Positions 38,190-54,751 of a DNA stretch of 64,000 nucleotides are shown here, one piece after another. This stretch comes from Caldifarciminota bacterium. Its GTDB lineage: Bacteria; Hydrothermota; UBA3073; JACQXS01; JAGMCI01. The stretch lies in assembly GCA_023129325.1 (NCBI GenBank), contig JAGMCI010000011.1:62001-126000 (forward strand), in the 5' to 3' direction. The translations under genes were made by a program, and so were the position numbers. Every line of letters begins with the position of its first letter. Positions within the stretch are counted from its first letter, which is position 1. A model generated the notes under the pieces. It worked only from the letters and a program-made list of their open reading frames with translations, was not told where the DNA came from and did not search any database.

Positions 38190-38884
38190 AATTCCTCCCT
38201 TTTACATTTTGAGATTTGCATTTTAAATTTATATGTCCTTTCTCTTAAATTTGCCTGCCCGCCGTCTTTTAACTCTGACAGGCGGGGATGATTAAATAAA
38301 TCTCCTGCTACACAAATACCATCTGCTCCAGCATTCAAAACTTTGTCAATCTTATCAAGAGTTATACCACCAATCCCAAGAATTTGTAGGGGCGTATTGC
38401 TATACGCCCCTATCACTTTTTTAATCTCAGAAATAAGAGATAATTTAACAAGAGGTTTAGATTTTGTAGAGGATGGAAATAAACAACCTACAGCTACATA
38501 ATTAGCCCCAGATTTAACTGCCTCAAGTGCCTGATTGACAGAATTTACACTTGTTCCAATTATCTTGTTTCCTAAAATCTTCCTGGCGTGGGAGGGAGGC
38601 ATATCAGATTCACCAAGATGTACTCCATCTGCTTGAGTTGCTAAAGCTACATCTGCTCTATCATTCACAATAAATGGGACCTTGAACTTTCCCGTTGCTC
38701 GCCAGATTGCGGTTCTAACTGTTAATGCATCTTGAAGAAAAGCCCTCGTATCCTGGGTTTTCTCGCGAAGTTGAATTACCGTGGCTCCTCCAAGGACTAA
38801 ATCCTCTACAATTTTAGTTAAATTTCTTGATTCACGACTTATATACTTCTCATCCAATATGACATATAAACTAAAGTCTATCAT
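38171..38884 (-). CDS. thiE: ThiE, thiamine-phosphate synthase
   Basis: Joins HMP-PP and thiazole phosphate into thiamine phosphate. QLREKTQDTRAF, FIVNDRADVALATQADGVHLG, IIGTSVNSVNQALEA, GANYVAVG and LGIGGITLDKI are the usual blocks. Two elements are inserted: family A (38386-38412), encoding VIGAYSNTPLQ before GIGGIT, and family C (38251-38288) within the C-terminal region (PRLSELKDGGQANL). The tail after that is probably not native. A ThiD2-like domain that is often fused to ThiE is encoded separately just upstream. Confidence 0.93.
   Translation of the reverse strand: MIDFSLYVILDEKYISRESRNLTKIVEDLVLGGATVIQLREKTQDTRAFLQDALTVRTAIWRATGKFKVPFIVNDRADVALATQADGVHLGESDMPPSHARKILGNKIIGTSVNSVNQALEAVKSGANYVAVGCLFPSSTKSKPLVKLSLISEIKKVIGAYSNTPLQILGIGGITLDKIDKVLNAGADGICVAGDLFNHPRLSELKDGGQANLRERTYKFKMQISKCKREELWQDFQ
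38251..38288. repeat. In-frame palindromic element (family C) at the thiE 3' end
   Basis: TTGCCTGCCCGCCGTC and GACAGGCGGGGATG arms encode the start of the odd C-terminal tail of ThiE. Confidence 0.6.
38386..38412. repeat. Family A palindrome in thiE (GAYSNTPL)
   Basis: GTAGGGGCGTATTGC and TATACGCCCCTA arms. Read on the minus strand it gives GAYSNTPL. Confidence 0.75.
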
Positions 38885-38901
38885 TTATTGTAGGCACAAA
38901 T

Positions 38902-39405
38902 TTATCTGTGTTTACCTGCCCGCCGCTTTGCTTTGGCAGGCGGGTCTGCGGTTAAAACTTTAAGTAATGTTTTCTCAAGGTCATAAATCTTAAATCTTAT
39001 TTCCTTAACTTGAGACGAGATTTTGGCACTAAATAATTTGCTAAATTCTTCTATTGCCCGACACCCCTCTTGAGCCCTTCTTAGATTTCTTTGGACAATC
39101 TCTTTTAAATCTTTATAAGAATGAGTATCAAAGTTACCATATTTCCCTAAATCCTTTCCTGTATCCCTGAATTCAATGAGATTAGAATTGGCAAAGAGAC
39201 TACTTAATTTATGCCTTTCAGTTTTTATCTCTTTGGTCAACTTTTTATCCTTAAGTATAAATCTTGCAACCTCCTCAACAATTCTTAAGCCTTCTCTTGC
39301 CCTGTTCAAGTTAGCATCAATGATTTGAAGAACCTCCCCGCCTTGACTCGCAACAGGCGAGGCAGGTAAGTTGAACTTTTCTTGGTGGAGAGATATATTT
39401 TTCAT
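38902..39405 (-). CDS. ThiD2-like domain protein
   Basis: A 167-residue protein with the helical domain usually found N-terminal to ThiE (ThiD2 family): IIDANLNRAREGLRIVEEVA, then KLTKEIKTERHKL, then RDTGKDLGKYGNFDTHSYKD and NLRRAQEGCRAIEEF. In several lineages this domain is fused to ThiE; here the two are separate genes with repeats between them. Both ends carry family C elements (39335-39366 encoding LPASPVASQGGE; 38914-38945 encoding ADPPAKAKRRAG). I start it at 39405 because the promoter leaves only nine bases before this ATG. Confidence 0.82.
   Translation of the reverse strand: MKNISLHQEKFNLPASPVASQGGEVLQIIDANLNRAREGLRIVEEVARFILKDKKLTKEIKTERHKLSSLFANSNLIEFRDTGKDLGKYGNFDTHSYKDLKEIVQRNLRRAQEGCRAIEEFSKLFSAKISSQVKEIRFKIYDLEKTLLKVLTADPPAKAKRRAGKHR
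38914..38945. repeat. Palindromic element (family C) at the end of the ThiD2-like gene
   Basis: CCTGCCCGCCGCTTTGC and TTTGGCAGGCGGG encode PPAKAKRRAG just before the stop, next to a TGTAGGCACAAATT family D copy. Confidence 0.65.
39335..39366. repeat. In-frame palindromic element (family C) near the ThiD2-like start
   Basis: CCCCGCCTTGACTCGC with ACAGGCGAGGCAGG encodes LPASPVASQGG. Confidence 0.55.
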
Positions 39406-39414
39406 TATATTTAT

Positions 39415-39442
39415 ATAATACAAATATAATACAAAAAGTCAA
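39415..39442 (-). promoter_or_regulatory. Promoter of the ThiD2-like gene
   Basis: TTGACT (39442-39437), 16 bases, TATTAT (39420-39415) on the minus strand; ATG at 39405, nine bases on. Confidence 0.65.
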
Positions 39443-39453
39443 CTTTTTATTTC

Positions 39454-39481
39454 TTGACTTATTTCTATATTTACTTATAAT
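39454..39481 (+). promoter_or_regulatory. Promoter of the gingipain-like gene
   Basis: TTGACT (39454-39459), 16 bases, TATAAT (39476-39481). The coding start is at 39635, so a leader of about 145 bases follows, in contrast to the leaderless genes. Confidence 0.65.
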
Positions 39482-39634
39482 TTTTATGAGGTCTATGAAA
39501 TAGAAACTATTAATTTGGGAAGCTAACAGAGAAAAATTAAAATCACTTGTTAAAAGTTGCATTTCAACAGCAACTTTACTATATAGGAAACAAATTGCAG
39601 GAATTATGGGTAAATTTATTAGAAAGGAGGAGTA

Positions 39635-42600
39635 ATGAAAAAATGCATTTTGTCTTTTTTCAGTATATTGTTTGTTTCTATGCCATTATTTGCTCCTACA
39701 ATTAAAGTAGCAAGTTCTACAGCGAATAATCTTATAGTAGGAGTCTCTTTACCCGAAGTTGAATTTACAAAAAGGGAATATCAAGATGGGAATATCTACT
39801 CAAGCCTTAAAGTCCACGGCAGTGGTATATGGAAAATAGGTAATCCAGAGATTCCTTGTTTTGGTAAGTGGATTCTTGTCCCTAATGGAGCGAGTGCGCA
39901 TATTAATACTTATCCGGGTAAACCAGTAATTTATAAGGATATTGATTTACCACCTGTCCAGCCACCCCAGCCAGACTTAAAGAATGCCCCCCCTCAATAC
40001 TTTACCAGGAATGAGCAAATTTATAATGAAGATAAGGATTACCCATGGAAGTTTGCCTTAATTGAGCCACTGAAAAAGATGCGTGGTCAGTCCTGCACTA
40101 TTTTATGGATTTTGCCTTATCAATATAATCCAGTTAAGAAGACATTGAAAGTATATCCTGACTTACGAGTAAATGTTGATTTCTCTGGACCAATAAAACC
40201 AATACCGTCCAATTTAAAGAGCAAAAACTATGAAAAAAAGATTCTTGGTATGGCTCTCAATGCCAGAGAAGTTTTAAATGCCCAGGAGAATGTTAAGGAT
40301 AGCAAGAGGGATAATAACAGTAAAACTAATGGATGTGAATTACTTATTATTACACACGATGATTTTGAAAGTGCTGCTAATACATTGGCTGATTGGAAGA
40401 TGAAAACCGGGTTAATAACAAAGGTGGCGAAAACCTCTATCATTGGGGATACAACTGTTGATATTGAAGCTTATATAGATAGTGCTGTTAGTAATTGGAG
40501 TCCGGCACCGGAATATCTGCTATTTTTGGGTGATGCTGAATATGTTCCTACCTGGTATAAGAATTTTCATCCCTATCCATCTCAAGGACCCACAGGTACT
40601 GATATTTTTTATGCAGATATAGATAATCCAGCAGATTATGTCGCTGACCTGGGTTATGGAAGATTATCAGTAGATACGCCCGAACAAGCAGATAGCTTGG
40701 TTGCCCGTATCATTAGATATGAGAAAATAGCAAATAGCAATAGTTATTACTCAAATACTACAATGGCAGGTTGCTTCCAAGACGGTGCTTATGGTGACCC
40801 GCCAGACAGCGTGGCAAATAGGAGATTTGCTAAAACAAGTGAAGATGTAAGGAATTATCTGAATATTCAAGGATTTATGACGCAAAGGATTTATGCAACC
40901 TATAATGGATATGATTATACCGAAATATTTCCGAAATATTGGAGCACATACTATGTTTTTGAAAATGATACTTCCGGTGTAGAAATTCCTGCTGATTTAC
41001 AAAAACCCACTTTCCCCTGGAATGGCAGCACCGCAGATGTTTCCAATGCTGTTAATAATGGGACTTTCTTTTTATTGCACCGCGACCATGGGGGACGGAG
41101 TGGTTGGGGGGAGCCGTATTTCCGCAAGTGGGATGTAGATGCTCTTAATAATGGAGAAAAAAGACCCATTGTCTGGAGTATCAACTGTAACACCGGTTGG
41201 TTTGATAATGAGACAGATAGTGTCGGATGTGGGACGGATTTCAGTGACGAGTGTTTTGCAGAACATTGGCTTAGACACAATACTGGTGGGAGTTGTGGTC
41301 TTATTGCTGCTACAAGAGTTAGTTACTCGGGCATAAATGACAGATTGGTATGGGGATGGATGGATGCTATTTGGCCTGGATTTCTTACCTGGTGTAATAA
41401 CCCTTATGGAGGCAGCGAGCGGATATATAGAATAGGAGATGTCTTAAATTATGGGAAAGAATATATGAGGACAAAATATTATTTCGACGATTATATACGA
41501 ACTGCTCTTGAAGAATTTCACTGGCTTGGAGACCCTACAATGATTATCTGGACAGGTATTCCAGAGATAATGGCTGTAAGCTATCCCTCTACTGTTTCCA
41601 TTGGCTCAGGTAGCCTCACAGTATATGTTGAAACCACTCCCAAGGGAACACCGATAGACAGTGCCTGGGTATGCGTTATGAAGGGTGATGAGGTTTATGA
41701 GCGGGGATTGACAGATGCCTCTGGAAATGTAATACTTTCTATATCGTCATCAACTATTGGGACACTCTGGGTAACTACAATAGGAGAAAATTATATCCCA
41801 GATGAAGGTTCTGCCCTTGTTGTTTGCTATGGTGATGTAAGCCCAGATTCAGTCATAAATCCGACAGATACTGTTTTTGTTGACTCTATCTACTTGCCCG
41901 GGGTATATGTAAAAAATATGGGAACAGACACAATTCAAGCTTTTGATGTCACTTGCACAATTGATACTTCAGGAGTTAAAGGCTACAGTGATATACAACC
42001 TGTTTCCAATCTTGCTGGTGGAGATAGTGTTATTGTGACATTTTCAGGATGGACAGTTCCTTTTGCGAGAAAGAGTTATACAATTACTTTCTTTGCTTCA
42101 GGCACATTTTTGGTTGATACTAACCCTTCAAATGATACGCTGGTAAGCACTGTGTATGAATATAATGATGCACCATTAGTCTCAGGTCTGCCTGATACAA
42201 GTTTTTCGGAAGATGATACTCTCTATATAAACCTTAATAACTATGTATTTGATAGCGATGACCCAGATTCGTCTCTTAACTGGAATTATTCAATCTATGA
42301 AACTAAGAATAAAAGCGGTGTGTCTCTGAAAGCATCTCTACCAGCAAGTAGAGATAAAGGTCTAAGTTTGCCAAGATACAGTAAAAATAGTCCACTTTAT
42401 GTAGATATTGACTTAACTGCTCACATTGCTACAATTACAGCTGACCCTGATTGGAGTGGTTCGCGAAATATTGTCTTTACAGCAGAAGACCCATGGGGAC
42501 TAAGTGATTCTGATACAATGATTCTTACAGTCAAGTCTGTAAATGATGCACCAGTAGTATTTATCCCGGATACAAGTTTTAATGAAGATGATTCACTAAT

Positions 42601-43435
42601 GCTTTATCTAAATGATTATGTTAGTGATGTGGATAATCCTCTTGATAGTCTTATATGGAGCTGTTCGGGAAATGATACTATTATTGTAGACATAGACCCT
42701 GTAACACATTGGGCAACCTTCTCTGCTCCAAAAAACTGGCGCGGCAGTGAACTACTTATATTTATGGTTGATGATGCTACCTCAAAGGCAACCACCACAG
42801 ACTCAGCCACAATTACAGTTATATCTGTCAATGACCTACCTGTAATTGATAGTTCTGCTCCAGAGTCGCCCTGTTCTACTTTTGTGGATTCAATTCTTTT
42901 ATTTTATGTATTTGCTCATGATGTGGATGTAACTGACACATTAGCTTATGACTGGATTATTAATGGGACTCTTGATACGACAACTTATACTGGAATTTAT
43001 TCCTATTCAAGTTCAGAAGAGACAGTGGATACAATGAAAGTCAGGGTAAGTGATGGAGTATTGGGAGATTCAGTTATGTGGATAGTAACTGTCAAATCTA
43101 TAGGTGTAGAAGCTGAAAGCCCTCAAGTACCTAATGATTTTTCTCTTTCACAAAACTGTCCAAATCCATTTATGCAAACAACTGAAATTAGATATGCGAT
43201 TCCAGAGGATGTACAAGTAGAGATTGCTATTTACAATATACTGGGACAAAAAGTTATGACGCTGATAAACCGTAATCAAAAAGCTGGTTATTATGCAATA
43301 AAATGGAGTGGCATAGATGATTCTGGGGAAAGGGTAGCAAGCGGTATTTATTTTTACAGAATCAAAGCCCACCCAACGGATGGCGGGCAAGCAGAAAAAT
43401 ATACAGCAACTAAGAAAATGTATCGGATGAGGTAA
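39635..43435 (+). CDS. Secreted gingipain-like (C25) peptidase with C-terminal sorting tail
   Basis: A 1266-residue secreted protein: signal peptide (CILSFFSILFVSMPLFA), a propeptide-like region, then a C25 peptidase domain (about residues 220-640). Candidate catalytic residues lie in FFLLHRDHGGRSGW (His) and IVWSINCNTGWF (Cys). After it come an Ig-like module, a CARDB-like module, two or three cadherin-like modules (NDAPLVSGLPDTSFSEDD, NDAPVVFIPDTSFNEDD) and a FlgD/Por tail with WSGIDDSGERVASGIYFYR. A family C remnant (about 43370-43391) encodes HPTDGGQAE near the end. AAAGGAGGAGTA precedes the ATG. The tail implies surface delivery through a type IX-like or related pathway, whose genes are not here. 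Confidence 0.9.
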   Translation: MKKCILSFFSILFVSMPLFAPTIKVASSTANNLIVGVSLPEVEFTKREYQDGNIYSSLKVHGSGIWKIGNPEIPCFGKWILVPNGASAHINTYPGKPVIYKDIDLPPVQPPQPDLKNAPPQYFTRNEQIYNEDKDYPWKFALIEPLKKMRGQSCTILWILPYQYNPVKKTLKVYPDLRVNVDFSGPIKPIPSNLKSKNYEKKILGMALNAREVLNAQENVKDSKRDNNSKTNGCELLIITHDDFESAANTLADWKMKTGLITKVAKTSIIGDTTVDIEAYIDSAVSNWSPAPEYLLFLGDAEYVPTWYKNFHPYPSQGPTGTDIFYADIDNPADYVADLGYGRLSVDTPEQADSLVARIIRYEKIANSNSYYSNTTMAGCFQDGAYGDPPDSVANRRFAKTSEDVRNYLNIQGFMTQRIYATYNGYDYTEIFPKYWSTYYVFENDTSGVEIPADLQKPTFPWNGSTADVSNAVNNGTFFLLHRDHGGRSGWGEPYFRKWDVDALNNGEKRPIVWSINCNTGWFDNETDSVGCGTDFSDECFAEHWLRHNTGGSCGLIAATRVSYSGINDRLVWGWMDAIWPGFLTWCNNPYGGSERIYRIGDVLNYGKEYMRTKYYFDDYIRTALEEFHWLGDPTMIIWTGIPEIMAVSYPSTVSIGSGSLTVYVETTPKGTPIDSAWVCVMKGDEVYERGLTDASGNVILSISSSTIGTLWVTTIGENYIPDEGSALVVCYGDVSPDSVINPTDTVFVDSIYLPGVYVKNMGTDTIQAFDVTCTIDTSGVKGYSDIQPVSNLAGGDSVIVTFSGWTVPFARKSYTITFFASGTFLVDTNPSNDTLVSTVYEYNDAPLVSGLPDTSFSEDDTLYINLNNYVFDSDDPDSSLNWNYSIYETKNKSGVSLKASLPASRDKGLSLPRYSKNSPLYVDIDLTAHIATITADPDWSGSRNIVFTAEDPWGLSDSDTMILTVKSVNDAPVVFIPDTSFNEDDSLMLYLNDYVSDVDNPLDSLIWSCSGNDTIIVDIDPVTHWATFSAPKNWRGSELLIFMVDDATSKATTTDSATITVISVNDLPVIDSSAPESPCSTFVDSILLFYVFAHDVDVTDTLAYDWIINGTLDTTTYTGIYSYSSSEETVDTMKVRVSDGVLGDSVMWIVTVKSIGVEAESPQVPNDFSLSQNCPNPFMQTTEIRYAIPEDVQVEIAIYNILGQKVMTLINRNQKAGYYAIKWSGIDDSGERVASGIYFYRIKAHPTDGGQAEKYTATKKMYRMR
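43370..43391. repeat. Palindromic element remnant (family C) in the gingipain-like gene
   Basis: CCCACCCAACGGATGGCGGG interrupts the end of the sorting tail and encodes HPTDGGQ. Confidence 0.4.
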
Positions 43436-43580
43436 GGTCAGAAGTAATTTTACTGGACAGGTTTGTAATTTGCCAGGAGAGGATTCTGTAATCACCAGAA
43501 TATTTTTCTAATTTTTCCTCACAAATTTGAGAAAAGAGCGGCATTATAAACCACAAGATTTACGCGAGAAGTGTCATCTT

Positions 43581-43618
43581 GTGAAAATCTGTGTAATCTG
43601 TGGTTATTTTTCTTGACT
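43581..43618. repeat. Promoter-bearing repeat (family J), purE copy
   Basis: AATCTGTGTAATCTGTGGTT then ATTTTTCTTGACT. Its final TTGACT is the -35 box of purE. Related copies lie at 46971-47008, 50361-50408, 52817-52855 and, without TTGAC, elsewhere. Confidence 0.65.
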
Positions 43619-43641
43619 TCTTTAAATATGTAGTTTATAAT
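43613..43641 (+). promoter_or_regulatory. Sigma-70 promoter of purE (leaderless)
   Basis: TTGACT (43613-43618), 17 bases, TATAAT (43636-43641), then six T and the ATG at 43648. Confidence 0.8.
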
Positions 43642-43647
43642 TTTTTT

Positions 43648-44049
43648 ATGACTGAAATAAGTATTGTTATAGGAAGTAAATCAGACGAACCTTGGCTTAA
43701 GGAATGTACCAAAGTACTCGCTGAGGCAAAACTCTCTTACGAAGTTGCAATAACATCTTGCCACCGAGAGCCTGAAAAGACGAGAAATTATGCTAAATCA
43801 CTCAAAAAGAGAGGAATAAAAGTTGTTATTGCAATGTGTGGGTATTCGTGTGCACTTCCTGGGTTTATAGCTTCGCACACTGATTTACCCGTTATAGGAG
43901 TCCCGCTTCCAACTTCACCACTAAAAGGCATTGATTCGTTACTTTCAATAGTTGAGCTTCCATCTGGAGTTCCAGTTGCTACAATGGGAATAGGTAAAGC
44001 TGGAGCTAAGAATGCTGCCCTCTTTGCATGCAAGATACTTAAAAAATGA
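43648..44049 (+). CDS. purE: PurE, 5-(carboxyamino)imidazole ribonucleotide mutase type
   Basis: Purine-pathway enzyme of 133 residues acting at the AIR/CAIR step. IVIGSKSDEPWLKEC (the PurE GSxSD start), ITSCHREPEKTRNYAK (SxHR), GIKVVIAMCGYSCALPGFIA and GVPLPTSPLKGIDSLLSI are present. The AGMSAALPG segment is replaced by CGYSCALPG, which is closer to class II enzymes that use CO2 directly. No purK is visible, which fits that. The -10 box ends six bases before this ATG, so the message is leaderless and longer upstream starts are ruled out. It overlaps murA by four bases. Confidence 0.92.
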   Translation: MTEISIVIGSKSDEPWLKECTKVLAEAKLSYEVAITSCHREPEKTRNYAKSLKKRGIKVVIAMCGYSCALPGFIASHTDLPVIGVPLPTSPLKGIDSLLSIVELPSGVPVATMGIGKAGAKNAALFACKILKK

Positions 44050-45290
44050 AGAAGTTTGTCATTGAGGGAGGGCGTCCACTTAAAGGTGAAGTTACTCTTT
44101 CGGGCTCTAAAAATGCTTCTCTTCCTATTTTAGCCGCCACTTTACTTGCCCCTGGCGAACATATAATACATAATGTGCCAATGCTTGGTGATGTTAAAAC
44201 AATGATAAAAATTTTAAAAGCTACAGGAGCAATTACGAAATTTGAAAACCATACACTTGTTATAAATACAAAATCAATAACTAATTCCAAAGTTCCTTAT
44301 GAGCTTGTTTCTACTATGAGAGCTTCTTTTCTCATTGCTGGAGCTTTGATTGGTAGACTTGGCGAAGCTTATGTATCAAGACCTGGCGGCTGTGCAATAG
44401 GGTCAAGACCAATTGATGGACATTTAAAGGGCTTTGAGGCTCTGGGTGTAAAAATTGAAGAAAAACATGGATATATCAATGCAACTACCAAGGACCTCAA
44501 AGGAGCTGAAATATGGCTTAATGAACGCTCGGTTACTGGAACTGAAAATATTTTGCTCGCTTCAGTATTTGCAAAGGGAGAAACACGTGTCACAAACTAT
44601 GCTAAGGAACCACATGTTATTGACCTTATAAAATTCTTAAATTCTATGGGCGCAAAAATTAAGGCTCAAGACGATAGCATTATAATTGAAGGCGTTAAAA
44701 AACTTCAACCTAAAGAATATACTATATCCCCGGATTATAATGAAGCTGGGACATTTATGATTGGAAGCGCAATTACAGGCGGAGATATTTTCTTGAGAGA
44801 TGTAAGATGGGAAGACTCAATCTCAGAGATTGCAAAACTTCGTGAAATAGGAGTAGAGGTCAAAAAAGATAAGCTCGGTATAAGAGTGAAAAGAAAAAAA
44901 ATAATAAAACCCTGCACTGTAAAAACCGCCCCTTGTCCTGGCTTCCCAACTGACCTTCAGCCACAAATAACAGCCTTACTTACTCTCGCAGATGGCACTT
45001 CAATAGTGACAGAAACAATGTTTGAACAAAGATTTAATCATATTCCAGAGCTCCGAAGAATGGGCGCTCAAATAGAACTTGAAGAAAGGAGCGCCATAAT
45101 TAAAGGGGTTTCTGAACTATCAGGCGCAAAAGTTATGGCTTCAGACATTCGTGCAGGAGCAGCTCTTGTCCTTGCAGGACTTTCTGCAAAAGGAGTAACA
45201 GAAATATCAAGAATCTACCATATAGATAGAGGCTACGAAAACCTTGAAACTAAATTAAGCACCTTAGGTGCCAAAATAAAAAGAGTATGA
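44046..45290 (+). CDS. murA: MurA, UDP-GlcNAc 1-carboxyvinyltransferase
   Basis: First committed step of peptidoglycan synthesis: enolpyruvyl transfer from PEP to UDP-GlcNAc. LKGEVTLSGSKNASLPILAA begins the chain; VSRPGGCAIGSRPIDGHLKG carries the active-site Cys (fosfomycin target), and CPGFPTDLQPQ and MFEQRFNHIPEL follow. At 414 residues it is full length. It overlaps purE upstream and the lipoprotein gene downstream by four bases each. Confidence 0.96.
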   Translation: MKKFVIEGGRPLKGEVTLSGSKNASLPILAATLLAPGEHIIHNVPMLGDVKTMIKILKATGAITKFENHTLVINTKSITNSKVPYELVSTMRASFLIAGALIGRLGEAYVSRPGGCAIGSRPIDGHLKGFEALGVKIEEKHGYINATTKDLKGAEIWLNERSVTGTENILLASVFAKGETRVTNYAKEPHVIDLIKFLNSMGAKIKAQDDSIIIEGVKKLQPKEYTISPDYNEAGTFMIGSAITGGDIFLRDVRWEDSISEIAKLREIGVEVKKDKLGIRVKRKKIIKPCTVKTAPCPGFPTDLQPQITALLTLADGTSIVTETMFEQRFNHIPELRRMGAQIELEERSAIIKGVSELSGAKVMASDIRAGAALVLAGLSAKGVTEISRIYHIDRGYENLETKLSTLGAKIKRV

Positions 45291-45760
45291 GAATTACAAT
45301 TTTAATTTGGACAATTATAATATTTTTGTTAGTGGGTTGCAATAAACTAAATCATCAATATAAAGTTACTATTCCTGTTAATAAAGAAATTGTAGCAGAT
45401 GGGGTTGGAGACCATAATGGTATCGCTTCAGAAGATGAGTTAAAATTCATTGAAGAATATTTTAATTCTGACCCCGAAGCTTGGTGCATGGGTTACTTTC
45501 CACTCTCCTATGCAGGCAAAACTCAAATTCCAGCGGATACAGTTCTGTGGGCATTTAAGCAAAATAGCCTTGCAGGACCTTACAAAAGTGAAACGGAGTT
45601 AAGGGAAGCATTCAAAGGAGTTAATATAAGAACTCCGTGTGTGGGAGTATATGTGCTTATATTAGATGAAGAATGCGAAATTACGCATCTTTTTCGAGCT
45701 CCAGGGCCTCAGTTTAGCAAGAGCGAATGGATTCAAATGAAAGTCGTGCTTGGTGGATGA
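45287..45760 (+). CDS. Lipoprotein of unknown function
   Basis: A 157-residue predicted lipoprotein: hydrophobic signal with LLVGC (Cys 18), then an acidic mixed alpha-beta domain with EAWCMGYFPLSYAGK, IRTPCVGVYVLIL and ECEITHLFRAPG. Three further cysteines could pair in the periplasm. I do not recognise the family. It is translationally coupled to murA (ATGA) and is followed by the first of the attC-like sites. Confidence 0.7.
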   Translation: MRITILIWTIIIFLLVGCNKLNHQYKVTIPVNKEIVADGVGDHNGIASEDELKFIEEYFNSDPEAWCMGYFPLSYAGKTQIPADTVLWAFKQNSLAGPYKSETELREAFKGVNIRTPCVGVYVLILDEECEITHLFRAPGPQFSKSEWIQMKVVLGG

Positions 45761-45768
45761 TAAATACT

Positions 45769-45817: not shown

Positions 45818-45850
45818 ATCATTGCTTCACAGAGAAATTGTGGGGATTAA

Positions 45851-47008: not shown

Positions 47009-47044
47009 TTTTAAGTTCCTATAATATTGTATTGGTCAGAGAAA

Positions 47045-47503
47045 ATGAAAGTATTTAATAAGAATTTGTCAAATATAGTAATAAGGAATTTCTGTATAGA
47101 AGATTATGATACACTTATAACACTATGGGATAATGCACAGCTTCCATATAAACCAAAAGGCCGAGATAGACGAGATAAGATTAAACAGGAGCTCAATTGG
47201 GGAAATGCTATTTTTTTGGTCGCTGAGGCAAATGGCAAATTAGTAGGCTCTATTTTAGGCACGCATGATGGTCGAAAAGGCTGGATAAATAGACTTGCAG
47301 TAGCTCCTGAATTTCAGAAACAAGGCATTGCGAGAAAGCTCGTGGCTGAAGTAGAAGCTCGTCTTTCTGAACTTGGAATTGAAATAGTAGCTTGTTTGAT
47401 TGAAGACTGGAATACGAAATCTATGCAAGCTTTTGAAAGATTAGGATATAAGCAGTCCCCGGAAGTAATGTATTTTTCTAAAAGAAAAAATTCAGATGTA
47501 TAA
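47045..47503 (+). CDS. GNAT-family N-acetyltransferase
   Basis: A 152-residue GNAT acetyltransferase. The acetyl-CoA loop is VAPEFQKQGIARKLV (Q/R-x-x-G-x-A/G, about residues 86-100), preceded by GSILGTHDGRKGWINRLAV and followed by CLIEDWNTKSMQAFERLGY. Acceptor unknown; RimI-like and antibiotic-acetylating enzymes share this outline. I use the ATG at 47045; the frame opens upstream only with TTG. It is a typical cassette-type gene by size and setting. Confidence 0.87.
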   Translation: MKVFNKNLSNIVIRNFCIEDYDTLITLWDNAQLPYKPKGRDRRDKIKQELNWGNAIFLVAEANGKLVGSILGTHDGRKGWINRLAVAPEFQKQGIARKLVAEVEARLSELGIEIVACLIEDWNTKSMQAFERLGYKQSPEVMYFSKRKNSDV

Positions 47504-47514
47504 TACAGCACAGC

Positions 47515-47545
47515 AGATAACATGGTGTGTACGATTCATGGAGTT
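47515..47545. other. attC-like site 3 (5' half)
   Basis: AGATAACATGGTGTGTACGA then TTCATGG. It aligns with the 5' half of the site at 52699 (TTTAACAAAGCATTTACGAC). Confidence 0.25.
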
Positions 47546-47585
47546 TATCCAGTCGGAATTTGTTTACTCATAAAGGGGAGATACT

Positions 47586-48251
47586 ATGGTGAAATTGAAC
47601 TTATCTTTACCCTCTGAGATTGAAGACAAACGTGCTTATTATCATAATCTCATTGGCTCTTCTTTAAACTATGTTATATCTTGGTTTAAAAATATAGGGT
47701 TCGCAGTTACCCTTGATGAGATAATTACTAATGCTGCAGTTTTTAATGACAACGATTTTCTTAGGAATAAGATGGCCGAGGTTTTCGGTATTCCTCTGAA
47801 TCAAATTATTAAGACCTTTTGTGGAACCGTGCATAATAAGACACTTTATATACTTTCTATTAAAAAGTACGAAGCAATTTACAAAACCCTTTATCCAGAC
47901 TATCAATGGAATACAGATTGCTATAAGAAACTTATCATTCATGAACTCGCTCACAAAGCGCATGCTTTGACGGCAATACATTTGAAAGGAACAGAGGATG
48001 GAATGGGACCAAGATGGTTTTTTGAGGGATTGGCAATGCTTTGTGCCAATCAATTTATCTCGGTTTCTAATAGAAAAATGACAATCAATGAGATAGAGAG
48101 ATATGCTCGGGAAGACCAAAATGAACTATTATCTTATCCAATTTATGCGTCAATGGTTAGGTCTCTGGCTATTTCTATTCCTCTCAATGACTTAATCAAA
48201 ACGGCTGATTCGCCTAACTTTTTAGATTTTATAAAAGAGCACTATCTATAA
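47586..48251 (+). CDS. Putative zinc metallopeptidase (HELAH)
   Basis: A 221-residue protein with LIIHELAHKAHAL (HExxH, about residues 117-129) and a later GPRWFFEGLAMLC, where the Glu may be the third zinc ligand as in gluzincins. No signal peptide, so it would act in the cytoplasm. It overlaps the next gene, another HExxH protein, by one base. Substrate and family are not recognised. Confidence 0.65.
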   Translation: MVKLNLSLPSEIEDKRAYYHNLIGSSLNYVISWFKNIGFAVTLDEIITNAAVFNDNDFLRNKMAEVFGIPLNQIIKTFCGTVHNKTLYILSIKKYEAIYKTLYPDYQWNTDCYKKLIIHELAHKAHALTAIHLKGTEDGMGPRWFFEGLAMLCANQFISVSNRKMTINEIERYAREDQNELLSYPIYASMVRSLAISIPLNDLIKTADSPNFLDFIKEHYL

Positions 48252-49189
48252 TGAAAATACAAATTTCGGACAATAGTGCCTGTGGACAAATAAATTATGA
48301 TTTTTCGGCAGTTGAATTGGTTATAGACTACTTTCTAAAACGTAACAATAACAAAATAAACGAAATTGTAAATCATCCAGCTTATAAGCTTGTATTTGAG
48401 CATAGCAAGCGTTTTTCTTCAACCGCACTTAATAAGGATATGTTGGTATTATCGTTAAAGGGAAAGTCTACTGCTTTTGGTTTTTCAAATATAAATGAGC
48501 GGTTATCTATACTAAAAGAGATGGTCAATTATCTCAAAAACAACGAACAAAAGATAAAAGAAGAGTTTATACCACTTGCTTTGTTTTATCTCCCAAGGGA
48601 TTATAAACCAGAGGTAACAGTGTATTTTATCATTGGCGGTTATAATGGGATAGCATTAAATGATGAAGTAGCTATTAATATTGATTGGGAACAATTTCGT
48701 AGTGCTCCACAAGAAATATTCTTATATCTTCCACATGAGTTATTTCATATTGGTTTTGCCCATTATCAACAAGTGCCTGATATTTCAATAGTAAAGACCA
48801 AAGAAGATTTAAGGAAATTGGTTATGAGTTTTACAATGAATGAAGGGTTAGCTACCTTAGTGACCTATCAAAAACGGATTGACTTAAATGCACTATCAGA
48901 CTATGATTATTCTATCCTAATTAATAGTCTTTTGCTCACAAAAAAAGTGAAGCAATTCATGAGTCTAATACAAATATTAGGTAGAAATATTAGTGATTTT
49001 GTAACTAACAAATTGTTGGCAGAAGTCCTTGGACAGTGTTCAGGTGATAGGCTGTTTTATGTTGTTGGGTGTTATATGGGATTGAAGATAGAGCAGAACT
49101 ATGGTAGGGAAAAACTCATTGAACTAATAAAACATTCTCCTGAAAAGTTCTTTGAAGTTTTTAAAAATGTAGATAGGCAAAATATTTAA
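48251..49189 (+). CDS. Putative zinc metallopeptidase (HELFH)
   Basis: A 312-residue protein with YLPHELFHIGF (HExxH, about residues 171-181) and MNEGLATLVTYQKR (third ligand Glu), the pattern of several uncharacterised zinc-peptidase families. It lacks a signal peptide. The ATG overlaps the preceding stop, so the two HExxH proteins are produced together and may form a complex or an enzyme/regulator pair. Family assignment is open. Confidence 0.65.
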   Translation: MKIQISDNSACGQINYDFSAVELVIDYFLKRNNNKINEIVNHPAYKLVFEHSKRFSSTALNKDMLVLSLKGKSTAFGFSNINERLSILKEMVNYLKNNEQKIKEEFIPLALFYLPRDYKPEVTVYFIIGGYNGIALNDEVAINIDWEQFRSAPQEIFLYLPHELFHIGFAHYQQVPDISIVKTKEDLRKLVMSFTMNEGLATLVTYQKRIDLNALSDYDYSILINSLLLTKKVKQFMSLIQILGRNISDFVTNKLLAEVLGQCSGDRLFYVVGCYMGLKIEQNYGREKLIELIKHSPEKFFEVFKNVDRQNI

Positions 49190-49204
49190 AAAGGGATTGA
49201 TTGT

Positions 49205-49849
49205 GTGAAGACAACAATTGTAACACTTGCTACTTTACATCAATTTCATCTGAAATCTAAGTTTTATTCCCTTAGTCATTTAAGGACAATCATTGAAAAA
49301 GCAAATCCAGATGTAATTTGTGTTGAGTTAACAGCGGCGGACTTAAGATGCAAAGAGGACTGGACAGCAAAGAGCGAATATTCTAAATGTATTATACCGC
49401 TTAGTGAGAAAAAGGGCTATAATCTTGTTCCTATGGAGCCTAACGAACCGAAATATTCAAGGATAGTAAATATGCATGAGCAAATGCTTAAAAAGACTGA
49501 ATCCGAAGAACCAAAGAAAATAGAAATCTTCAACCAATATACCGAAATACTTTATGACTATTTGTTTACTTATTGGGGTTCTCCTACTGATGTAAATTCA
49601 TCTTTAACAAATACTCTCTTTGAGTTGAAACACGCATTTCAAAACTCTCTTTTTGGTCCGATAGAAAAACAGTGTTGGGAGGAATGGAATACTCATTTTC
49701 TGAATACGATACTTGAGACTGCTGAAGAGTATGAAGGTAAAAGAATACTGGTAACAGTTGGCGTAGAGCATGTATATTGGTTAAAGAAACACTTAAAAAA
49801 TAATTCAAGAGTTAGATTGGTAGAAGTCAATGAAGTGTTTAACGAATGA
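49205..49849 (+). CDS. TraB/TIKI/ChaN-superfamily-like protein
   Basis: A 214-residue protein. TLATLHQFHLKSKFYSLSHL at the start, ANPDVICVELTAADL, and the end VTVGVEHVYWLKKHL match the arrangement of TraB/TIKI-like proteins (GxxH at both ends and an acidic strand), some of which are metal-dependent proteases. It begins with GTG at 49205. Third gene of a coupled trio with two HExxH proteins, and followed by the clearest attC-like site. The call is tentative. Confidence 0.55.
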   Translation: MKTTIVTLATLHQFHLKSKFYSLSHLRTIIEKANPDVICVELTAADLRCKEDWTAKSEYSKCIIPLSEKKGYNLVPMEPNEPKYSRIVNMHEQMLKKTESEEPKKIEIFNQYTEILYDYLFTYWGSPTDVNSSLTNTLFELKHAFQNSLFGPIEKQCWEEWNTHFLNTILETAEEYEGKRILVTVGVEHVYWLKKHLKNNSRVRLVEVNEVFNE

Positions 49850-49858
49850 TAGCACTTC

Positions 49859-49945
49859 GCCTAACAGCAAGTTTACGGGTTGCCCTGATAAAATTAGAGG
49901 TATCTGCAACAAGGTGGCACTTCACAAATACAGAAAAGGTTAGGC
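49859..49945. other. attC-like site 4 (best match)
   Basis: GCCTAAC (49859-49865) and GTTAGGC (49939-49945) are exact inverse complements 73 bases apart, matching the RYYYAAC and GTTRRRY cores of integron attC sites. Inner arms AGTTTACGGGTTGCC and GGCACTTCACAAATAC pair imperfectly, as attC arms do. Confidence 0.5.
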
Positions 49946-49978
49946 AAAATGATATAATAAATTAAAGGGAGGTTTAAT

Positions 49979-50224
49979 ATGGGACAAAGGAAAAGTAAAT
50001 TTGCTCCTCTGTTGCTTGGTATAATCGTTGGTGTGATAATATTGGTATTAAGCATTACTCCCATTTCACCAAATGCCAGGTCTGTGGTTCAGTATATACT
50101 TATTGGAATCTTTTTTTCATTTGGCATAATCGGATGGAGGGCAGAAAATAAAAGAAGTATAATTATTGCTAATATAATCCTTTGGTGTGCAATAATTGCT
50201 GCAATTGTTATTACATTGATTTGA
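49979..50224 (+). CDS. Small membrane protein, unknown function
   Basis: An 81-residue protein with three hydrophobic segments (LLLGIIVGVIILVLSI, YILIGIFFSFGIIGW, IANIILWCAIIAAIVI). AAGGGAGG precedes the ATG. No family recognised. Placed between two attC-like sites. Confidence 0.65.
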   Translation: MGQRKSKFAPLLLGIIVGVIILVLSITPISPNARSVVQYILIGIFFSFGIIGWRAENKRSIIIANIILWCAIIAAIVITLI

Positions 50225-50237
50225 AAGTTAGAAACGG

Positions 50238-50330
50238 TATTTAACAAGATTCAAGTGAGATAAAGAATAGTATTTTAAAAATCTGCTTCACCTAATAGCG
50301 TGTTCCCAAGCTTCACAATAAAATGGTGTG
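50238..50330. other. attC-like sequences 5a and 5b
   Basis: TATTTAACAAGATTCAAG (50238) and ACCTAATAGCGTGTTCCCAA (50290), then a TTCACA...TGTGAA hairpin (50310-50332). The second matches the 5' half shared with sites 1, 2 and 4. Confidence 0.3.
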
Positions 50331-50334
50331 AAAT

Positions 50335-50361
50335 TCCCCAGCACATAATTATGTGCGGGAC
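50335..50361. repeat. Intergenic palindrome (family E)
   Basis: TCCCCAGCACATAA and TTATGTGCGGGA form an inverted repeat. The same core recurs, perfect, at 59251-59276. Confidence 0.6.
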
Positions 50362-50408
50362 GGGTCTGTGAACTCTGTGGTCTGTGTGGTTTCATCTTTT
50401 TCTTGACT
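50361..50408. repeat. Promoter-bearing repeat (family J), ispG copy
   Basis: CTGTGAACTCTGTGGTCTGT, then GTGGTTTCATC, then TTTTTCTTGACT, whose last six bases are the -35 box of ispG. Confidence 0.6.
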
Positions 50409-50433
50409 TTTCCAATCCCTGTGATAGTATAAT
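50403..50433 (+). promoter_or_regulatory. Promoter of ispG (leaderless)
   Basis: TTGACT (50403-50408), 19 bases, TATAAT (50428-50433), six bases, ATG at 50440. Confidence 0.65.
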
Positions 50434-50439
50434 TAGAAA

Positions 50440-51498
50440 ATGATTAAAAGAAAACTTACTAAACAAGTTAAGGTCGGAAATGTAAAAATTGGTGGTGGAG
50501 CAATAGTTTCAGTCCAGTCAATGACTAAATCTAAAAATTTATTAGAAATCATTAAAGAAATTAAAGAACTTGAATCTCTTGGATGTGAGCTTATAAGAGT
50601 GGCAATCCCTGATTTTGAATCTGTAAAAAAGATTAAAAAAATTAAAAAGGAAACTCATATACCTCTTATTGCAGATATACACTTCAATTATAAGTTAGCA
50701 ATTGAGTCAATAAAACAAGGTGCGGACAAAGTAAGAATGAATCCTGGTAATATAGGAAGTAAAGAAAAGGTGCGAGAAGTTGTAAAATATGCTAAGGATT
50801 ATAATATTCCTATAAGAATTGGTGTAAACTCTGGTTCTCTTGAAAAGGATATACTCTCAAAATATGGGAGTTCAACCTCAGATGCTCTTTTTGAAAGCAT
50901 CAAAAAATGGGTCAAGATTATTGAAGATTTCGGCTTTGACTCTCTTGTTTTATCAGCCAAATCATCTGATACTAATACTACTATAGAGACTTACCGTAAA
51001 ATTTCAAGAGAGCTTAATTACCCACTTCATATTGGTGTCACAGCCACAGGCTCAGGAATTCAGGGAATGGTTCGCTCATCAATTGGGATTGGAACTTTGC
51101 TTTCTGAAGGAATCGGTGATACACTCAGAGTGTCTCTTACAGGGTCATCAAGAGATGAAGTAAAATTGGGTCACGAAATTTTAAAATCGTTGGGTTTTAA
51201 GAAAAAAGAGCCCCAAATCATAGCCTGTCCAACTTGTGGAAGATGTGAGATTAATGTTGAAAAACTTGCTAACGAAGTAGAAAAAGGATTGAATTCTGTA
51301 GGGGCGTATTGCAATACGCCCCTACGGATTGCTGTAATGGGTTGCATAGTAAATGGTCCCGGTGAAGCAAGGGATGCGGATTTTGGCGTAACAGGAGGTA
51401 AAGGGAAAGGAATTATATTTAGAAAAGGCAAAATAATAAAAAAGGTTGCAGAAAATAAAATAGTTGCTACATTATTAGAGGAAATTAAAAATACCTAA
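50440..51498 (+). CDS. ispG: IspG, 4-hydroxy-3-methylbut-2-enyl diphosphate synthase
   Basis: Fe-S enzyme of the MEP isoprenoid path that reduces MEcPP to HMBPP. VGNVKIGGGAIVSVQSMTKS, IPLIADIHFNYKLAI, VRMNPGNIGS and LHIGVTATGSG form the TIM barrel. CPTCGRCEIN and MGCIVNGPGEA hold the three cluster cysteines and the catalytic Glu. It is the short bacterial form. A family A repeat (51298-51325) encodes GAYCNTPL between the two cysteine blocks, only 8 residues from the second, in a region that is otherwise well conserved. Confidence 0.95.
   Translation: MIKRKLTKQVKVGNVKIGGGAIVSVQSMTKSKNLLEIIKEIKELESLGCELIRVAIPDFESVKKIKKIKKETHIPLIADIHFNYKLAIESIKQGADKVRMNPGNIGSKEKVREVVKYAKDYNIPIRIGVNSGSLEKDILSKYGSSTSDALFESIKKWVKIIEDFGFDSLVLSAKSSDTNTTIETYRKISRELNYPLHIGVTATGSGIQGMVRSSIGIGTLLSEGIGDTLRVSLTGSSRDEVKLGHEILKSLGFKKKEPQIIACPTCGRCEINVEKLANEVEKGLNSVGAYCNTPLRIAVMGCIVNGPGEARDADFGVTGGKGKGIIFRKGKIIKKVAENKIVATLLEEIKNT
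51298..51325. repeat. Family A palindrome in ispG (GAYCNTPL)
   Basis: GTAGGGGCGTATTG and CAATACGCCCCTAC are perfect inverse complements (28 bases, no loop). Confidence 0.85.
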
Positions 51499-51548
51499 AA
51501 AGAATTTAGGTGTTTAGGAATTTAGGCATTTACTATAGTGGAGGTGAT

Positions 51549-51893
51549 ATGCAAAGAATAATGTGTAAATCCAAGGTCTATGGACTTTGGGTAACTGGTA
51601 AGTCTATTGAATATGGAGGCTCAATTGAGATGCCGCCTGAAGTTCTTGAAGCTTCAGATATTTTGCCAGGCGAGATTGTGCTTGTTGTTAATATAAATAC
51701 AGGGGCAAGATTTAATACTTATGTGATAAAAGGCAAGCCAGGCGAATGCCGATTACTCGGAGGAGCAGCAAGGCTTGGAGATATAGGAGATAAATTACTT
51801 GTCATATCTTATGGCTTAATGGATACCAAAGATGCTCAGTTTCACAAGCCGAAATTTGTCTTTGTAGACGAGAAAAACAGAATAAAAAAATGA
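51549..51893 (+). CDS. panD: PanD-like aspartate 1-decarboxylase
   Basis: PanD makes beta-alanine for pantothenate. It is a proenzyme that cleaves itself before Ser25 to form a pyruvoyl group. The line-up is good: MQRIMCKSKVYGLWVTG, IEYGGSIEMPPEVLEASDIL with the Gly-Ser cleavage site, VVNINTGARFNTYVIKG, then LGGAARLGDIGD. I start it at 51549, where GGAGGTG precedes the ATG; the frame is open 39 bases further up. At 114 residues it is slightly short. It follows ispG with CCTAAA-type repeats in the gap. Confidence 0.87.
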   Translation: MQRIMCKSKVYGLWVTGKSIEYGGSIEMPPEVLEASDILPGEIVLVVNINTGARFNTYVIKGKPGECRLLGGAARLGDIGDKLLVISYGLMDTKDAQFHKPKFVFVDEKNRIKK

Positions 51894-52017
51894 GCCACAG
51901 ATTGCACAGATTTAAAGTCAAACACGAACAAATTTCATCTGCATAAATCTGTGTCTAAATAAATTCGCAGATACGGAACTAAATGCAAATATGACTTATT
52001 TTTGTTAGAGAAATAAA

Positions 52018-52704
52018 ATGAATATTGATAAGGATGACAAATTCGATTTAATTTACAATATAGTAACAACAGCTGCTGCAAACATATTAGATCCGATAGA
52101 AAAGGCTGCAAAAAAGATTTTCAAAAATGAAAATAAACCAGAAGTATGGGATCTTGGTTTTCTGGAAATAGTAGTATTTTTGCTTTTTGAAGTAGATTTT
52201 GCCATGAATCTTTTCAAACAAGATAGAAAAATCAGAGAAAGTTTGATAATTTATTTAATAGATAACTTTATTAAGCAAACAGACATGAAAGAATTTAAGC
52301 TTTTCCTTAAAAAGCTTTTTAATCAAAGATGCCTTGAGTATAGCGAGATAGTTAATAGCAAAGAATACAGAAAGACACAAAAAATAGAACTTATTATTGA
52401 ACCTCTTTTCAATAATGTACTTCTTGCCATTAATAATGGAGAAATTAATTTAAAAAAAGAGGGAATAAGACCTCTATCACTTGATTTTTGGGGGTTAACA
52501 TTAGCGAGAGAATCATATTTCGATTCAGGTTTTAGGCATCATTTTGGGCTAAAAATATATTTAAAACATATTTTACAAAATAACACAAATTTTACATTGA
52601 TTAGTCAAGATGAAATTGACGATAAGATAATAGATGCAAATAAAGAAATAGAAAGTTTATTGAAAAAACGAAGGATAAAAGAAAACAAGTCATCCATCGT
52701 TTAA
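52018..52704 (+). CDS. Hypothetical protein with attC-like 3' flank
   Basis: A 228-residue soluble, mostly helical protein of charged composition (IEKAAKKIFKNENKPEVWDL, FLKKLFNQRCLEYSEI). No family recognised. Its stop codon lies inside a GTTTAAC core of the attC-like site at 52699. Upstream, GTTAGAG lies ten bases before the ATG, a possible 3' core of a preceding site. Confidence 0.6.
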   Translation: MNIDKDDKFDLIYNIVTTAAANILDPIEKAAKKIFKNENKPEVWDLGFLEIVVFLLFEVDFAMNLFKQDRKIRESLIIYLIDNFIKQTDMKEFKLFLKKLFNQRCLEYSEIVNSKEYRKTQKIELIIEPLFNNVLLAINNGEINLKKEGIRPLSLDFWGLTLARESYFDSGFRHHFGLKIYLKHILQNNTNFTLISQDEIDDKIIDANKEIESLLKKRRIKENKSSIV

Positions 52705-52777
52705 CAAAGCATTTACGACTTCATTTCGTTTCGCTCAATTATTGTGTGGTTTTGTAAATGCTTAAATGTTGTATGAT
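52699..52777. other. attC-like site 6
   Basis: GTTTAAC then AAAGCATTTACGAC, paired with GTAAATGCTTAAATG at the other end: eight perfect base pairs (GCATTTAC/GTAAATGC) plus a TTTAA/TTAAA pair and unpaired CAAA on one side only, like the extrahelical bases of attC. Confidence 0.4.
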
Positions 52778-53007
52778 ATGGAATTCAGGAGGGGCTTGAT
52801 TTTTTGGAGATTGAGAATAATCTGTGTAATCAGTGGCTTAATTTTTTCCTTGCAATTTGGGTAAAGTATGCTAAATTTAACCGCAGATAATCGCAGATTA
52901 AAAGAGATTGTGCTGCTGTTTTGCTGTTCTGCAGTTTTGCTGTTAACCGCAACACGGCATAACTGCATTGTGAAATTCTGTGTCTTTCTGTGGCTGATTT
53001 TTAAAAT
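52705..53007. other. Repeat-rich intergenic region
   Basis: After the attC-like site this region carries a family J copy (52817-52855, ending TTGCAA), TAACCGCAGATAATCGCAGA repeats, and TGCTGTTTTGCTGTTCTGC direct repeats. A final TTCTGTGTCTTTCTGTGGC copy ends directly at the ATG of the next gene. A TTGCAA...TAAATT pair (52850-52877) could be a promoter. No gene is seen. Confidence 0.55.
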
Positions 53008-53199
53008 ATGAAAGTTAAGAAAGGGAATAAGAAATATTACGAAATACTTAAAAATATGAGTGGCGAAAAAAGGATGAAGATAGGGTTTGAGATGTATGAC
53101 TTTGCTCTGAAAATCGTGGAGTCATCTATCAGAAACCAAGAGCCTGGGATTTCTGAAAATGAACTTAAACAAAAGATAAAAGAAAGACTTCCAAAATGA
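53008..53199 (+). CDS. Small partner of the nucleotidyltransferase gene
   Basis: A 63-residue basic helical protein (KGNKKYYEILKNMSGEKRMK, then ENELKQKIKERL). Its stop overlaps the start of the next gene (ATGA), so it is a coupled pair. Small proteins of this kind occur just before DUF6036/AbiEii-like nucleotidyltransferases. Whether the pair is a toxin-antitoxin unit is not known. Confidence 0.6.
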   Translation: MKVKKGNKKYYEILKNMSGEKRMKIGFEMYDFALKIVESSIRNQEPGISENELKQKIKERLPK

Positions 53200-53747
53200 A
53201 CTTTGGGCAAGTCGTATTAGATGTAATTGAAAAGCTAAACCAATCCAATATTTCCTATATGCTCACAGGTGCTTTGGCAGTAAATTATTATGGTGAACCT
53301 CGCACAACCCATGACATAGACTTAGTATTAGAAATCACTGAAAATGATGCTTCCACACTTGTTGAATTTTTTGAGAAAGATTTCTTTATTGATAATGAAT
53401 CAATCCAAATTGCTCTGCACGAAAGAAGTATGTTCAATATTATTCATAAAGAAATTGGTCTTAAAGTGGACTTTTGGATATTGGGAAACGATGAATTTAC
53501 TTGTAAAGAATTTGGACAGCGTGTTAAAGTCAAGGCTATTGGAACTGAAATGTGGCTACCAAAAGCAGAGGATGTAATTATTAGAAAGTTAGACTGGTAT
53601 AAAAACTCTGATATTGATAAGCATTATCTGGATGCCCTCGGGATATATAGAATTCAGAAAGAAAATCTTGATATAAAATATATTACCAATTGGGTTACTA
53701 AAAAGTCAACTCTCAAAATCTGGCAAAAAATACAAGAGGCATTATGA
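53196..53747 (+). CDS. Nucleotidyltransferase-fold protein (AbiEii/DUF6036-like)
   Basis: A 183-residue protein with a minimal nucleotidyltransferase core: YMLTGALAVNYYGEPRTTHD, then HDIDLVLEI with the metal-binding DxD, and a third acidic strand KVDFWIL. It resembles AbiEii-type toxins and DUF6036 enzymes that modify tRNA or proteins. The small gene upstream could be its antidote, by analogy only. It overlaps glmU by four bases. Confidence 0.75.
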   Translation: MNFGQVVLDVIEKLNQSNISYMLTGALAVNYYGEPRTTHDIDLVLEITENDASTLVEFFEKDFFIDNESIQIALHERSMFNIIHKEIGLKVDFWILGNDEFTCKEFGQRVKVKAIGTEMWLPKAEDVIIRKLDWYKNSDIDKHYLDALGIYRIQKENLDIKYITNWVTKKSTLKIWQKIQEAL

Positions 53748-54751
53748 AGTCTTTTTCGGTTGTTATCTTGGCGGCTGGGGTTGGGAAGAGGATGAAGTCA
53801 AAAACTCCAAAGGTTATGCATAATATGTGCGGTAGACCTATGCTATTTTATGTAGTTGATACTGCTAAGCGTTTGAAGCCAGAAAAAATTGTCCTCGTGG
53901 TTGGAAAGAAAATAGATAAGAAATATTTTATAGGAGCATATTGCAATACGCCCCTACAATTTGTTGTTCAAGACCCACCGTTAGGAACAGGAGATGCTGT
54001 CCTTAAAACTGAATCTATGTTTAAAGATGTAGAGGCATATCGCCTGTCTCGCCGAGCCAAGGCGGGCAATACGCCCCTACTTATTCTTTGTGGTGATGTG
54101 CCATTACTTAAATCATCAACTTTGAGAGAACTTATTAAATTCCATTATAAAATTAAAGCATCAGCTACTGTGCTTACTGCAATTGTGCCAGACCCAAGTC
54201 TTTATGGCAGAATTATAAGAAGAGGGAATAAGCTAATTAAAATTGTAGAAGACCAAGATGCTTCTCCAGAAGAAAAGGAAATCTCTGAAATAAATTCAGG
54301 TATTTATGTTTTTGAAAAAACACCTTTATTTGAGGCGCTCCAAGAAATTAAGCCAGTAAATGCTCAAAAAGAATATTATCTTACAGATACTATAGAAATA
54401 CTGCGTAAAAAGGGATTGCCTGTAAGTGCCTATAAGACTCCTGATTATCATGAAGTGCTGGGCATAAATACGAGAAGGACACTAACTGAGGTAGAAAATA
54501 TTCTTCAAGATAGAATAATTGAAAACTTTCAGTTAGAAGGAGTAACTGTTGAAGAACCCGAAACAACACACATAGACTTTGATGTCCAAATAGGGAAAGA
54601 CACTTTAATTCACCCACGTGCCCATATTCTTGGAAATACCAAAATAGGCAAGAACTGTGAAATTGGTGCGGGAACAAGGATTAGGAATTCAAAGATATCC
54701 CCGGGAACAATAATTGGGGAGGATTCATCTATTGAAAATGCACAACTCTAA
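53744..54751 (+). CDS. glmU: GlmU-type UDP-GlcNAc pyrophosphorylase, shortened
   Basis: N-terminal uridyltransferase domain: VVILAAGVGKRMKSKTPKVM (UTP loop), DPPLGTGDAVL, LILCGDVPLL and EINSGIYVFE. The C-terminal left-handed helix acetyltransferase domain of GlmU is cut to about four turns (IGKDTLIHPRAHILGNTKIG to the end, total 335 residues against about 455), so acetylation must be done elsewhere. Family A elements at 53931-53957 and 54029-54080 encode FIGAYCNTPLQF and EAYRLSRRAKAGNTPL in surface positions flanking conserved strands. The 3' end overlaps the next gene by 14 bases. Confidence 0.88.
   Translation: MKSFSVVILAAGVGKRMKSKTPKVMHNMCGRPMLFYVVDTAKRLKPEKIVLVVGKKIDKKYFIGAYCNTPLQFVVQDPPLGTGDAVLKTESMFKDVEAYRLSRRAKAGNTPLLILCGDVPLLKSSTLRELIKFHYKIKASATVLTAIVPDPSLYGRIIRRGNKLIKIVEDQDASPEEKEISEINSGIYVFEKTPLFEALQEIKPVNAQKEYYLTDTIEILRKKGLPVSAYKTPDYHEVLGINTRRTLTEVENILQDRIIENFQLEGVTVEEPETTHIDFDVQIGKDTLIHPRAHILGNTKIGKNCEIGAGTRIRNSKISPGTIIGEDSSIENAQL
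53931..53957. repeat. Family A palindrome in glmU, copy 1 (GAYCNTPL)
   Basis: TAGGAGCATATTG and CAATACGCCCCTAC, slightly diverged from the perfect ispG copy. Confidence 0.8.
54029..54080. repeat. Nested repeat in glmU: family C inside family A
   Basis: GTAGAGGCATAT and AATACGCCCCTAC are the two ends of a family A element. Between them lies GCCTGTCTCGCCGAGCC with AAGGCGGGC, a family C element. Confidence 0.75.

Follow-up and report, generated by a model that had tools for sequence, protein, structure and literature searches.

REPs are defined as extragenic elements, and their mode of spread is still unsettled. The class closest to the elements described here is that of the double-foot REPs of TnpA_REP subclass 2.4, which corresponds to RAYT group 4; a REP located inside tnpA_REP, between the HuH and Y motifs, is also already on record for this subclass (Quentin 2018, PMC6006769). 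REP insertions in genes, including those of the GTAG type, have been described (Di Nocera 2013, PMC3733652). Binding and cleavage of single-stranded REPs by RAYTs have been published for groups 2 and 3, where the GTAG motif matters for cleavage (PMC8266576). Our literature search, with most subscription journals outside its reach, found no biochemistry of subclass 2.4.

Palindromes in the window and the host genome

The window, a stretch of 64,000 nucleotides, belongs to the 2.02 Mb genome of a Caldifarciminota bacterium (G000). A sequence-only reading of the window had proposed that a palindrome of 27-28 bases is inserted in frame into three or four conserved enzymes. Every claimed copy (in ispG, glmU and thiE) is indeed present (Table 1), and the half-site is found six times in the window as against 0.18 times in shuffles. 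The details needed adjustment: the elements are 28 bp long with one or more ends mutated, the bounds of the ThiE copy and of the first GlmU copy are those given in Table 1, and there are three enzymes carrying four copies. The common frame, read as GAY(C/S)NTPL, holds for all four, which encode VGAY.NTPL or, in two cases, the variant IGAY.NTPL. The enzymes were identified with NCBIfam/Pfam curated models.

Table 1. Palindromic elements, repeats and host genes of the window
Feature	Position	Strand	Sequence or model	Reading
ispG	CDS 50440-51498	+	TIGR00612, 387 bits	
ispG palindrome	51298-51325		perfect 28-bp double-foot, GTAGGGGCGTATTGCAATACGCCCCTAC	codons 287-296, VGAYCNTPLR
glmU, short form	CDS 53744-54751	+	best model NF010934, score under its cut-off	
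glmU copy 1	53930-53957		28 bp, three bases altered (ATAGGAGCATATTG...)	IGAYCNTPLQ
glmU copy 2	54029-54080		left half 54029-54040, right half 54067-54080	read as VEAYRLSRRAKAGNTPLL
Element nested in glmU copy 2	about 54041-54066		CGCCTGTCTCGCCGAGCCAAGGCGGG	
thiE	CDS 38171-38884	-	TIGR00693	
thiE palindrome	38386-38413		28 bp, mismatches in arms	IGAYSNTPLQ
Second palindrome family, thiE	38250-38286		TTTGCCTGCCCGCC...GGCGGG	in frame close to C-terminus
Second place of the CGCCTGTCTCGCCGAGCCAAGGCGGG family	57538-57563			
GC-rich palindromes	3699-3725, 30186-30215, 37147-37179, 55212-55241, 55293-55325		CCTGCCCGCC..., CTCGCCTCGCTGAAG...	in frame in ORFs
Repeat protein, 718 aa	26465-28621	-	five or more in-frame palindromic elements from two other families	RVGNRRELPLQ, RVGNRKGLPLQ, KRGEHTGSPLQ, PLRGEGRGEP, PLRGECRGEP
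126-bp repeat, seven tandem copies	56256-57170		inside one ORF (56146-57246)	

The insertion points had been thought to fall in conserved regions. This was not borne out by the alignments, in which homologues show loops of variable length at these places. The position of the IspG site between the Fe-S cysteine blocks was confirmed, since it falls between CPTCGR and MGC. Within the phylum and the solved structures, the inserted residues are absent from IspG of other families, relatives of the same order excepted. GlmU is 335 residues long and stops past the start of the left-handed beta-helix. The frames are short in several relatives too, so the acetyltransferase part may be absent or separate in this order. 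Besides the main element, the CGCCTGTCTCGCCGAGCCAAGGCGGG family occurs nested in it, with the frame kept, in GlmU, PrmC and other genes (also at L007 and L013 of the host genome).

As the sequence-only reading anticipated, the palindrome recurs throughout the genome. Exact matches to the half-site number 21, compared with zero for the reversed control; a search for the complete element that allowed up to three mismatches gave 32 sites, compared with one. In addition to ThiE, IspG and GlmU, the hosts recognized from the reading of their ORFs are UvrA, PheT, XseA, PrmC, LeuS, Lnt, FtsA, GlmM, EtfA/EtfB, LipA, a GalE-like epimerase and a MurF/MurE-like ligase. The lineage carries the element in frame within dozens of housekeeping enzymes, and the proposed translation-tolerant mobile repeat is supported. 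Thirty of the 31 sites tested lie within stop-free frames of at least 120 residues; random windows of the same DNA give 28.4, so the copies show no avoidance of coding sequence and no preference for it. Likewise, 17 of 22 copies in the relative G007 are in ORFs (19.4 expected). In genus g36, which is more distantly related within the phylum, copies shun genes (4 of 18 in ORFs versus 14.7 expected), and so do those of other phyla (42 of 104 versus 81.5). The description of REPs as mainly extragenic therefore fails in G000 and G007 and holds in g36 and the other phyla.

One of the three frames of the element contains TAG, which leaves just two open. In the host genome 24 copies are read as VGAY.NTPL (VGAYxNTPL), five as RGVLQYAPT (FtsA and a MurF-like ORF among them) and one in the third frame, opened by mutation. 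This strong preference, 24 versus 5, is what would be expected if GAY.NTPL were a functional peptide motif selected in enzymes, the resemblance at the DNA level being due to chance or codon-level convergence. We consider this explanation extremely improbable: conservation is at the level of DNA rather than peptide, the second frame is also used, other cores encode other peptides (VGARYIVPL, VGAIHELPL, VGAVREPPL), and some copies are intergenic, which contradicts it. The frame bias is absent in G007 (7 to 10).

Architecture, distribution and the associated transposase

The element consists of an arm GTAGGGGC, a 12-base palindromic core and an arm GCCCCTAC. With spacers of 0-40 permitted, the two arms are separated by exactly 12 bases in 212 of 231 distinct sites across all DNA fetched. 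The core is perfectly palindromic in 215 of 244 sites, and 49 different cores were seen; these counts include sites that were collected by palindrome patterns. The 8-base arms are conserved, and the cores are interchangeable. The 5' end reads GT[AG]G and its reverse complement C[TC]AC stands at the 3' end, as in double-foot REPs, and the arms form a long predicted hairpin whose stem is closed at its base by G-C pairs. The CGTC tag of RPE-4/-6 is not what the copies carry: they have GTAG or one-base variants of it.

The transcript of the palindrome folds strongly (-27 kcal/mol, z -5.6), which might point to a transcription or RNA signal, such as a terminator or riboregulator, that happens to fall in genes. 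We regard this as very unlikely, since an Rfam search with the palindrome gave no match, the position relative to genes is not fixed, and copies occur in conserved domains of many unrelated genes.

Judging by record titles, the exact 28-mer is present in more than 15 phyla, among them Cyanobacteria, Omnitrophota, Planctomycetes, Zixibacteria, Chloroflexi, Atribacteria and candidate phyla radiation bacteria, as well as in five viral contigs. Within the phylum of the window, palindromes of the same form (pattern with a variable spacer) were found in 32 of 147 genomes. The listed matches (15 of 134) of a literature text search for GTAGGGGCG were unrelated, mostly primer sequences judging by their titles.

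In several phyla a Y1 transposase gene harbors the 28-mer, at a distance of 33-61 bp past its HUH codons. The clade of these transposases matches NF047646, the REP-associated tyrosine transposase, with 72.7 bits, below the cut-off of 80, and the match is broken into two stretches by the palindrome. A search with PF01797 had returned four Y1 transposases, none with the element, and missed the relevant RAYT, which was then found by a clade-specific query. We examined 24 full RAYT ORFs, which came from this phylum and from the named loci. In 18 of them the centre of the best palindrome falls 20-110 bp past the HUH codons, an in-frame copy between the HuH and Y motifs. The motifs of the query (MPNHVH, IWQCNYYEH, YIINNP) and the ORF lengths, mostly 164-220 aa, agree with subclass 2.4/group 4, which has the motifs NH[IFV]H, WQ and YIxNNP, an extended distance between HuH and Y and a length of about 194 aa. 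Based on these motifs, the internal REP and the NF047646 match, the RAYT likely belongs to subclass 2.4 (group 4).

Copies also flank the tnpA_REP of the same genome in G000 (C37:21166), G047, G043 and G015. Within a genome, the core inside the RAYT tends to agree with those of the genomic copies. In G005, 10 of 13 palindromes, that of the RAYT included, are GTAGGGACAGATTATAATCTGTCCCTAC, the RAYT-internal sequence. In G043 the RAYT-internal and 3' copies are both GTTCAATTGAAC; the other RAYT of this genome carries AATTCGTGAATT, and the remaining copies are mostly of the AATTC type. G078 has one core common to three of its six copies, one of them beside the RAYT. G047 is mixed: its commonest core differs from the one inside its main RAYT, and a GTTCAATTGAAC copy overlaps the 3' end of the main RAYT ORF. 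In the host genome the only RAYT of the clade (C37:21280-21780) contains other palindrome types, with a GTATTG copy flanking it 87 bp away. The host genome also has two other Y1 transposase genes, L030 and L033, flanked by their own paired palindromes (GCACGATTTCAAATCGTGC and TGCAAAATCGGTGATTTTGCA), which are probably separate REP systems.

Over the 147 genomes, palindromes are present in 16 of 25 genomes with a RAYT of this clade and in 16 of 122 without (P = 4e-7, phylogeny not corrected); half of the 32 palindrome-bearing genomes thus have no detected RAYT of this clade. Overall, we interpret the element as a double-foot GTAG REP that is non-autonomous and mobilised as a single-stranded hairpin by a subclass 2.4 RAYT (TnpA_REP), and put the probability of this interpretation at about 0.87. 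The RAYT would handle the hairpin as single-stranded DNA, as is known for other groups, cut it at the GTAG/CTAC feet and then move or exchange hairpins. Copies would land in or convert loops, and those breaking the frame or the fold would be lost; a copy in a gene would persist only if the reading frame remains open and the loop can accommodate the change.

Length and core changes at occupied sites

Alignment with the nearest element-free relatives gave net gains of +6 residues in ThiE, LipA and PheT, +5 in XseA, +4 in IspG, +3 in GlmM and FtsA and about +1 in UvrA. The value for ThiE was measured against five relatives, and that for IspG against G001 of the same family and the solved structure PDB 3noy. 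A clean 28-bp insertion would add 9-10 residues once in frame. The observed gains are small by comparison (mostly +3 to +6), so that the element appears to have replaced target codons. The same small gains might result if 28-bp insertions were clean at first and adjacent codons were trimmed later: insertions would be selected for being in frame and fitting the loop, and the age of the sites in GlmU and IspG is such that they are shared between families. However, the palindromes of XseA, PheT and IspG are perfect even though their flanks would have shed several codons, and the DNA gain of G007 over its sisters is +18 bp at L088 and +12 bp at L362 instead of 27-30. We consider trimming unlikely.

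The palindromes of G007 were aligned with the orthologous DNA of G008 (84-87% identical) and G002 (75-79%). Ten sites have an orthologue. Four of these (L356, L358, L367 and L368) show a palindrome with a different core, or its recognizable remnant, in a sister; one (L366) has the same core, one (L354) probably a decayed same core, and four no clear palindrome. Two sites in genus g36 (L422 and L426) likewise differ in core, so that such differences are known in two classes. In the ispG loop, G000 has a GTATTG palindrome, G005 one interrupted by another element, and G007 a 17-bp GTAGGAGCAGCCCCTAC; at the site of glmU copy 1, the orthologues of G007/G008 have a decayed copy, GTAGGAGTATATCACAATGCGTCCCTAC. 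In G111 of genus g36 a further element is nested at the palindrome centre (ACCCTATGAGATGTCAAACATCTCAAGGGGCAGGCCC or a near variant, at L444 and L454).

Different hairpins at the same spot in sisters suggest that copies were swapped in place. Alternatively, these six sites could be hot spots of repeated insertion, with differing cores representing independent events in each species. Flanks are T-rich (T frequency 0.46 at -1 and 0.43 at -2), hinting at a target preference, and within genes only loops tolerate the element. Between very closely related genomes no insertion was observed. The cleanest site, L356, has GTTCAATTGAAC, GGTTCGCGAATC and GGTTTTTGAACT in three species with identical flanks; it is intergenic, so protein tolerance is irrelevant there. 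Furthermore, copies are equal in length and register and never in tandem. Hot spots are thus a serious but doubtful possibility. Overwriting of old sites would be the simplest reading of the core differences. The conserved 8-base arms would offer a shared landing sequence, making an old copy a ready target for the currently active palindrome of the genome; this would account for the perfection of palindromes at old sites as well as for the small net gains and the differences in core. That old REP sites, enzyme loops included, are repeatedly overwritten in this way through the GTAGGGGC/GCCCCTAC arms, in concert with the RAYT, is a tentative proposal to which we give somewhat less than even odds.

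Comparison with known systems

The kind of element is known: double-foot architecture, the transposase-internal copy and intragenic REPs have all been published. The elements share with subclass 2.4 REPs the 5' GTAG, its complement at the 3' end, a long stem with a G-C base and occurrence in many phyla; near-wholly genic populations, codon replacement and core exchange are not described in the accessible part of that study (PMC6006769). In the literature searched, to which most subscription journals did not belong, we found no earlier description of a REP population without coding avoidance, of apparent codon replacement at small net gain, or of differing or exchanged cores at orthologous sites. 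A lineage whose REPs are nearly all genic, and whose RAYT-internal copy agrees with the genomic ones in several genomes, offers a natural readout: the loops of orthologous enzymes preserve the identity and timing of the active palindrome. Should cores be exchanged in place, part of REP spread would be conversion instead of insertion, and essential enzymes would owe some in-frame changes of their loops to small selfish hairpins.

The sequence-only reading had named the Rickettsia palindromic elements as the nearest analogue; the GTAG double-foot REP of RAYT subclass 2.4 (PMC6006769) is closer. Those of Rickettsia (Ogata 2000/2002, cited in PMC6649704 and PMC3733652) are also selfish and lie in frame in conserved proteins, but their sequence differs, RPE-4/-6 being CGTC REPs (PMC3733652), a type that lacks a dedicated transposase, and RPE-1 being longer. 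Coding palindromes of nematomorph mitochondria (PMC6649704) are likewise perfect, located in essential genes and thought to be actively maintained. However, they reach 284 bp and are scattered perfect repeats without a transposase, not presented as a shared mobile sequence. The GTAG/CGTC REPs of Di Nocera (PMC3733652) resemble the present elements in that GTAG palindromes occur in ORFs, uvrA and tRNA synthetases included, and add residues in frame. The string GTAGGGG is absent from the main text of that paper; its GTAG is unpaired at one end and its REPs are mostly intergenic, whereas in the elements described here both feet pair.
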